The notes beneath the pieces are model-generated. The model did no database searches, was not told the origin of the DNA, and saw only the letters and a list, made by a program, of their open reading frames with translations. From a virus, in IMG/VR virus record IMGVR_UViG_3300035162_002197, positions 1 to 27,480 of that record: a stretch of 27,480 nt of DNA; one strand, given 5' to 3'. Of this stretch, positions 3,786-4,352 are shown piece after piece. A program made the translations under genes and the position numbers. The first letter of the stretch is position 1. Every line of letters begins with the position of its first letter.

Positions 3786-4097
3786 ATGCTTAACATCACA
3801 GCTCACGGCAACCTTGGCAAAGACCCAGAAATCAAAAAAGTCAATGACACTCAAGTTGCTTCTTTCAGCCTTGCTGCCCGCACCGGCAAAGACGAAACAA
3901 CCTGGATTGATTGCACTGTTTGGGGCAAACGCGCTGAAACCGTAGTCAACTATTTGCACAAAGGCGACAAGATCACTGTTGCCGGAAACGGCAAGGTTCG
4001 TGTTTATGAGCACAACGGCAAAGAAGGTCGGTCTCTCGACCTAAACGTCTCTGATTTCACTCTTCCAGCCAAGAAAGAAAACACTGCTGACTTCTGA
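3786..4097 (+). CDS. ssb: Single-stranded DNA-binding protein
   Basis: A 103-residue OB-fold protein recognisable as bacterial-type SSB. It has MLNITAHGNLGKDPEI at the start, VASFSLAAR, then WIDCTVWGKRAETVVNYLHKGDKITVAGNG and RSLDLNVSDF. It coats single-stranded DNA during replication and recombination as a tetramer in the known family. It is short: the flexible linker and acidic C-terminal tip that recruit host partners are nearly absent, and it ends in ENTADF. Translation starts directly after the upstream TAA (TAAATG). A strongly foldable RNA follows its stop codon. Confidence 0.93.
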   Translation: MLNITAHGNLGKDPEIKKVNDTQVASFSLAARTGKDETTWIDCTVWGKRAETVVNYLHKGDKITVAGNGKVRVYEHNGKEGRSLDLNVSDFTLPAKKENTADF

Positions 4098-4183
4098 TGT
4101 ATGGGGGCATCAAGCGGGCCAGGACCGAAAGGACTGGCGGGGGTGGATCCCAGTTGACCGCTTCGTATAAGTCCCCCACCACC
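4098..4183 (+). ncRNA. Predicted structured RNA between ssb and a 50-aa gene
   Basis: By hand folding, 4103-4107 (GGGGG) pairs with 4173-4177 (CCCCC), and 4112-4117 (AAGCGG) pairs with 4158-4163 (CCGCTT). A hairpin at 4118-4138 pairs GCCAG with CTGGC and closes a CC-GAAA-GG tetraloop, and a small GGG/CCC hairpin lies at 4141-4151. A second G-run (4139-4143) competes for the same CCCCC segment, so two alternative folds are possible, as in a riboswitch or attenuator. The 3' side reads CCCCCACCA, like a tRNA end, but the inner arms do not form a tRNA. No known class is recognised. Confidence 0.4.
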
Positions 4184-4199
4184 GACCTAACTTGAGAAG

Positions 4200-4352
4200 A
4201 TGTCAGAACCAACCCTCAAGCGCGTGTCAAAGAATGGTAAATGGGTTTGGGAAGTTGCCTATGGCGGCACCGTTCGCTATCACGCTCAGGATTGGCAAGC
4301 CCGCTGGATATACGAGGAAGCCCTACGGGTTTATTCCGAGCAAGCAAGCTGA
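4200..4352 (+). CDS. Small hypothetical protein, 50 aa
   Basis: This frame from the ATG at 4200 has a Shine-Dalgarno-like GAGAAG directly upstream. It encodes a compact sequence rich in Trp and Tyr (GKWVWEVAYGGTVRYHAQDW), ending in a short helix. A longer competing ORF in another frame (4192-4377) has a less protein-like composition and is rejected. The gene lies just behind the structured RNA and could be its regulatory target. Its last 22 bases overlap, tail to tail, the leftward gene 4331..4546. Function unknown. Confidence 0.55.
   Translation: MSEPTLKRVSKNGKWVWEVAYGGTVRYHAQDWQARWIYEEALRVYSEQAS

Follow-up and report, generated by a model that had tools for sequence, protein, structure and literature searches.

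The RNA encoded directly 3' of the ssb gene in this virus record (27,480 bases, the whole stretch analyzed and referred to below as the window) is almost certainly a genuine folded RNA that had not been catalogued before and that reappears, with matching base changes, in several unrelated kinds of cyanophage. We propose, with a probability of roughly 0.4, that this element acts in cis as an intercistronic punctuation mark in cyanophage transcripts, serving RNA processing or the protection of RNA ends.

Structure and conservation of the element

The window carries lambda-type terminase and portal genes, a capsid gene, and genes for a Sak-like annealing protein and for ssb; the last of these (103 aa, SSB family; ORF list, Pfam PF00436, E = 4e-19) occupies positions 3786 to 4097 of the plus strand, on which all features described here lie. 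Its TGA stop codon (4095 to 4097) is 5 nt 5' of helix P1, in which GGGGG at 4103 to 4107 pairs with CCCCC at 4173 to 4177, as read from the letters and predicted folding. Helix P2, likewise seen in the letters and folding and supported by covariation, joins AAGCGG (4112 to 4117) to CCGCUU (4158 to 4163). Between the two helices lies the core, recognized by comparison of copies, with CAUC at 4108 to 4111 on the 5' side and CGUAUAAGU at 4164 to 4172 on the 3' side (family consensus GYGUAAGU); the window copy deviates at 4167, where it has an A and nearly all other copies have a G. The top consists of P3, a GCCAG..CUGGC hairpin with a GAAA loop (4118 to 4138), which comparison of relatives finds in the long (type-1) copies and which minimal copies lack, and of a P4 region (4139 to 4157) that varies in sequence and length between relatives. 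The 3' side of P1 is followed by ACCACCGACC, and we rejected an intrinsic terminator for the window copy because no U-tract follows P1. The next gene (4200 to 4352; ORF list, PHROG 36325, no endonuclease match) encodes 50 aa.

A sequence-only reading of the window had drawn both helices and the GAAA-capped hairpin at these coordinates, and folding predicts all three, with pair probabilities given in brackets (about 0.7 for P1, 0.9 to 0.98 for P2, and 1.0 for the GAAA hairpin). It had also placed the element just 5' of a 50-residue gene, which indeed begins 22 nt past the element's end. A further small hairpin drawn at 4141 to 4151 is weak in the window (p = 0.11), although a variable helix at that place covaries in relatives. 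The suggestion of two alternative folds, in which a G-run at 4139 to 4143 within the P4 region would compete for the same C-run, has to be given up. This pairing has a predicted probability of 0.000 and, when forced, costs 9.6 kcal/mol (−24.2 versus −33.8), and a 5-mer able to compete in the same way occurs in only 8 of 44 longer relatives; the rival fold is thus energetically worse and mostly unconserved. Folding energy, which had been named as a check, does not set the element apart from shuffled controls (z = −0.84; 37 of 200 shuffles fold equally well).

The compensating changes that the same reading had looked for in related phages are present. In the window-type alignment (27 sequences), 92.8% of cells are paired, versus 37.6 to 60.8% in slid versions, and double-change cells number 56 versus 16.5 ± 3.5 after shuffling; one P1 pair appears as GC 15 times, as AU 10 times, and as GU twice. 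The alignment of the minimal form (R3) has 97.4% of its cells paired and 43 double changes versus 11.3 ± 2.5 (0/500), and a P1 pair that lies outside most search patterns is UA in 19 sequences, GC in 7, UG in 2, and CG in 1. In alignment A1, the search patterns account for part of the variation in P1 and for none of that in P2; where the pattern did not require P1, 23 of 29 distinct matches have a P1 of at least 4 bp.

Covariance models built from separate subsets find one another's members. Model R1, made from 17 endonuclease-type copies of T4-like phages and one copy behind another gene, contains no ssb-locus sequence; it nevertheless recovers the window spot (4099 to 4181; 17.8 bits, E = 6.4e-4 in 27 kb) and most ssb copies. 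Model R2, made from long copies only with the endonuclease copies left out, matches many endonuclease copies (E of about 2e-5 to 0.2), and the R3 model matches the window at 4100 to 4180 (E = 0.0076); the E-values of these home-made models are rough. Given the cross-detection by R1 and R2, the forms are best read as one family. Together, covariation and recovery by an independently built model strongly support the earlier assignment of an unassigned structured RNA.

The invariant part comprises P1 (4 to 7 bp), an asymmetric internal loop (5' CA[U/G] facing 3' GYGUAAGU), and P2, while the top above P2 is interchangeable and ranges from a 26-nt hairpin up to about 118 nt. The recurring core reads GGGGCA[U/G]CA..G[U/C]GUAAGUCCCC, and CA[U/G]C shows no variation among the pattern-collected copies and the ssb relatives; the copies were gathered with core-containing patterns, which in part dictate this invariance, although not for the ssb-locus set or the model-found copies.

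No known riboswitch or tRNA had seemed to fit, and database searches bear this out: Rfam and ARAGORN are empty at this spot. The Rfam 15 covariance models (riboswitches, ribozymes) gave no acceptable match to the window or to sampled relatives, permissive thresholds included, and ARAGORN predicted no tRNA or tmRNA gene anywhere in the window. The C4 family (RF01695, RF02944) was rejected, with no match in the window and a best relative (contig L018) reaching 30.6 bits with c4-2 over a partial model, against a cutoff of 41; moreover, the c4 RNA of phage P1 lacks the core sequence, and the phage P1 genome has no R1 match. A literature search for the core strings returned only unrelated work.

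Distribution and genomic contexts

We collected 80 viral contigs with a related ssb without reference to the RNA, and 78 of the loci were readable. On the 3' side of ssb, 31 loci carry the motif, 21 a U-tract terminator, none both, and 26 neither; the loci are mutually related, so these counts are not independent. Pattern scans enlarged the set to 66 distinct copies, and the core pattern alone matched at least 120 stretches. In nearly all copies P1 begins a few nucleotides after a stop codon, on the coding strand, and 51 of 69 minimal copies have their conserved GGG starting 4 to 11 nt past the stop of an open frame, ORF limits around metagenomic copies being mechanical and uncurated. Stop-codon read-through was rejected as an explanation, since a second stop codon (TGATAA) stands 5' of P1 in many siphovirus copies.

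Siphovirus-like contigs carry the element 3' of ssb, before an approximately 50-aa gene or before convergent genes, and several ssb loci are followed by a convergent gene or by none. Tandem pairs follow ssb in two contigs (L018, 5332 to 5408 and 5423 to 5538; L124, 680 to 756 and 775 to 849), and contig L155 has the element plus a separate terminator. Contigs L004 to L014 have a different hairpin directly 3' of ssb, whose loop reads AGATCTATGAC, a sequence present again in the start region of the approximately 50-aa gene that follows (AGATCTATGAC); AGATCT is self-complementary, so the hairpin loop and the gene start region could pair.

Other copies flank tRNA genes. Phage Bellamy and contig L207 have the element between tRNA-Arg and tRNA-Gly, with only a few nucleotides separating it from tRNA-Gly, and contig L202 has it between an ORF and tRNA-Thr. 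These three copies (Bellamy 155484 to 155539, L207 3923 to 3968, and L202 1632 to 1675), each from a different phage, share the loop sequence ACCACCACCAC, which in Bellamy runs on into CUCCU, resembling the 16S rRNA tail.

The S-EIV1-like contig L197 has seven copies within 4 kb, each at a gene boundary and all on the coding strand. Across the S-EIV1-like set, P1 lies 24 to 34 nt from the next AUG for 31 of 34 genes; all 34 lack a Shine-Dalgarno sequence, and their leaders are poor in G (0.9 versus 3.9 G per 24 nt, p = 7e-7). Almost G-free leaders of about 30 nt, often ending in CAACTCAACC-ATG, follow the element in L197, L208, L215, L225, L247, and their relatives.

In T4-like phages, the element stands directly 5' of homing-endonuclease genes of the GIY-YIG or HNH type, usually with the late-promoter sequence TATAAATA between element and gene. 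The loop is antisense to the endonuclease leader in 16 of 17 copies (p ≤ 0.03; mean z = −4.3), the pairing falls just before the AUG, and the two sides covary between cassettes, as in GUAUGUCUGGGG/CCCCAGACAUAC and GUGUCUUGGCG/CGCCAAGACAC. The 49 non-endonuclease copies, including that of the window, show no loop-leader complementarity (mean z = −0.13; window p = 0.65 with the downstream 95 nt as target). We therefore discarded the antisense loop as a general property, as it is confined to endonuclease copies. In phages B23, S-B68, S-CREM2, and MC09, an intrinsic terminator takes the place of the element at the endonuclease loci and precedes the late promoter. Loci L168, L172, L173, and L174, which lack the element, carry a lock of another kind, in which a 5' arm complementary to the leader is followed by an intrinsic terminator, a TATAAATA-like late promoter, and the leader. 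Two GIY-YIG homing endonucleases, at L169 (Sf-CH5 156271 to 156693) and L168 (B23 41542 to 42165), are labelled "translation initiation factor 2" and are apparently misannotated.

The cultured carriers, S-SRM01, Sf-CH5, Bellamy, and S-EIV1, are all Synechococcus phages; the set is dominated by metagenomic contigs, and hosts are assigned from these few isolates. The cultured ssb relatives KBS-S-2A, S-H1, and S-CBS3 do not carry the element. A blastn search with the element gave no match in isolate phages, where model and pattern searches did find copies. Among bacterial and archaeal genomes (84,980 species), a scan for the form with GGGG/CCCC and a 20- to 50-nt gap only gave three hits, which we judged to be chance matches, as their flanks have no known context.

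Function of the element

The contexts have nothing in common beyond the core and the intercistronic position. As a punctuation mark, the hairpin would fold at a cistron boundary within a polycistronic RNA and be recognized; because unrelated phages share the element, its most likely reader would be an RNase or RNA-binding factor of the host, and recognition would separate the upstream and downstream RNAs or protect their ends. Cyanobacterial RNases are distinctive, comprising RNase E and RNase J and, frequently, several genes for RNase III (PMC10989914), which makes host-specific recognition plausible; we identified no nuclease with this recognition sequence. Endonuclease cassettes would put the element to a secondary use, in which loop-leader pairing blocks translation of read-through transcripts, while the late promoter between the element and the gene would give rise to a message without the loop, allowing translation to escape. 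This antisense lock, supported by covariation, would be an add-on to the common role.

Whether taken as a switch for one particular gene, as an antisense RNA, or as a terminator, the element fits one context and fails in another, whereas a host-read mark fits all of them. Some considerations weigh against punctuation: the AUG spacing and G-poor leaders of the S-EIV1-like set would equally suit a 5' translation module, proximity to both genes says less where intergenic regions are compact, and L155 combines the element with a separate terminator. Polycistronic cyanophage RNAs need dividing and timing, and their hosts degrade RNA with machinery unlike that of model bacteria. A short sequence-specific mark in T4-like, S-EIV1-like, and siphovirus-like cyanophages, with up to seven copies within 4 kb, points to a single shared mechanism. 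The cultured phages S-EIV1, Bellamy, S-SRM01, and Sf-CH5 make such a mechanism directly testable, and the covariance model could serve to annotate many unannotated cyanophage intergenic regions. We put forward more tentatively that unrelated cyanophages have in common a new class of functional RNA module, either a small self-cleaving ribozyme or the specific target of a host factor. It would serve generally to separate messages and tRNAs, and homing endonucleases would have co-opted it for use as an antisense lock.

A translational control element or riboswitch in the 5' untranslated region, whose structure, by itself or together with a ligand or protein, would govern how ribosomes reach the following start codon, appears unlikely. 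It would account for the covarying loop-leader pairing just before the endonuclease AUG and for the P1-to-AUG distance of 24 to 34 nt with a G-poor leader lacking a Shine-Dalgarno sequence, but copies outside endonuclease cassettes have no apical complementarity, others precede convergent genes or lie between tRNA genes, and the downstream genes have no evident theme. For the window copy, the proposal of a cis-regulatory switch made from the sequence alone finds no support, given an apical part without complementarity to the downstream gene, next genes that are convergent or absent at several ssb loci, and the motif's occurrence between tRNA genes. The alternative named there, a small RNA, is a possibility.

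We regard as rather improbable a trans-acting antisense small RNA of the C4-like kind, in which processing would free the element and a variable top on a constant scaffold would pair with target leaders. The scaffold is indeed constant while the top varies, the endonuclease loops are antisense to the leader, and in tRNA contexts the loops share one sequence and processing of the flanking tRNAs would free the element; however, many minimal copies have loops of 3 to 8 nt, which are too short, and no target of the window copy was found in the 95 nt downstream of it.

It is similarly doubtful that the element is an unusual transcription terminator standing in place of U-tract terminators. Element and intrinsic terminator are mutually exclusive at 52 ssb loci, the element lies at or near the end of the ssb operon, and the endonuclease loci of the four phages named above carry an intrinsic terminator instead. 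Nevertheless, a U-tract is absent from the window and from most siphovirus copies, and the L155 locus has its own terminator after the element, so that end formation alone is not the element's role everywhere. We rejected a strict terminator in view of the few nucleotides to tRNA-Gly in Bellamy and L207, which leave no room for a promoter, and of the seven copies within 4 kb of co-directional genes.

A new small self-cleaving ribozyme that separates cistrons would suit the small, strongly conserved asymmetric core with its free top and the intercistronic and tRNA-flanking positions across unrelated phages. We give this reading a low probability: Rfam yields no match to known ribozyme families, and to our knowledge the core resembles no catalytic core that can be named with confidence.

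A protein-coding or chance origin, with a 32-codon ORF at 4097 to 4195 and the structure as its by-product, can be dismissed almost entirely: although its ATG overlaps the ssb stop (TGATG) and 32 codons are open, it has no homologue, the frame is broken in relatives by stops immediately 3' of ssb and by indels that are not multiples of three, and conservation lies in base pairs rather than codons, as the covariation attests.

Comparison with known systems

The early genes of phage T7 offer a precedent for the proposed punctuation mark: within one polycistronic RNA, on the gene strand, intercistronic hairpins with internal loops serve as RNase III processing sites, and their sequence conservation is small. 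Both systems place several hairpins between cistrons, but the internal loop of the present element is nearly invariant. The C4 antisense RNA of phages P1 and P7 is likewise a structured phage RNA between genes with loops able to pair with a leader.

In plastids, the intercistronic expression element, IEE, is a short intercistronic RNA element that is reported to yield stable translatable units from an operon (PMC2230500); its likeness to the phage element lies in the proposed role only. The closest counterparts of the cassette copies are the T4-type homing-endonuclease hairpins of I-TevI, segB, and mobE, which sequester the ribosome site and likewise combine loop-leader pairing with a late promoter in between (PMC2988022). 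Those hairpins are simple and have no conserved core, whereas here a conserved core recurs also where no endonuclease gene is present.
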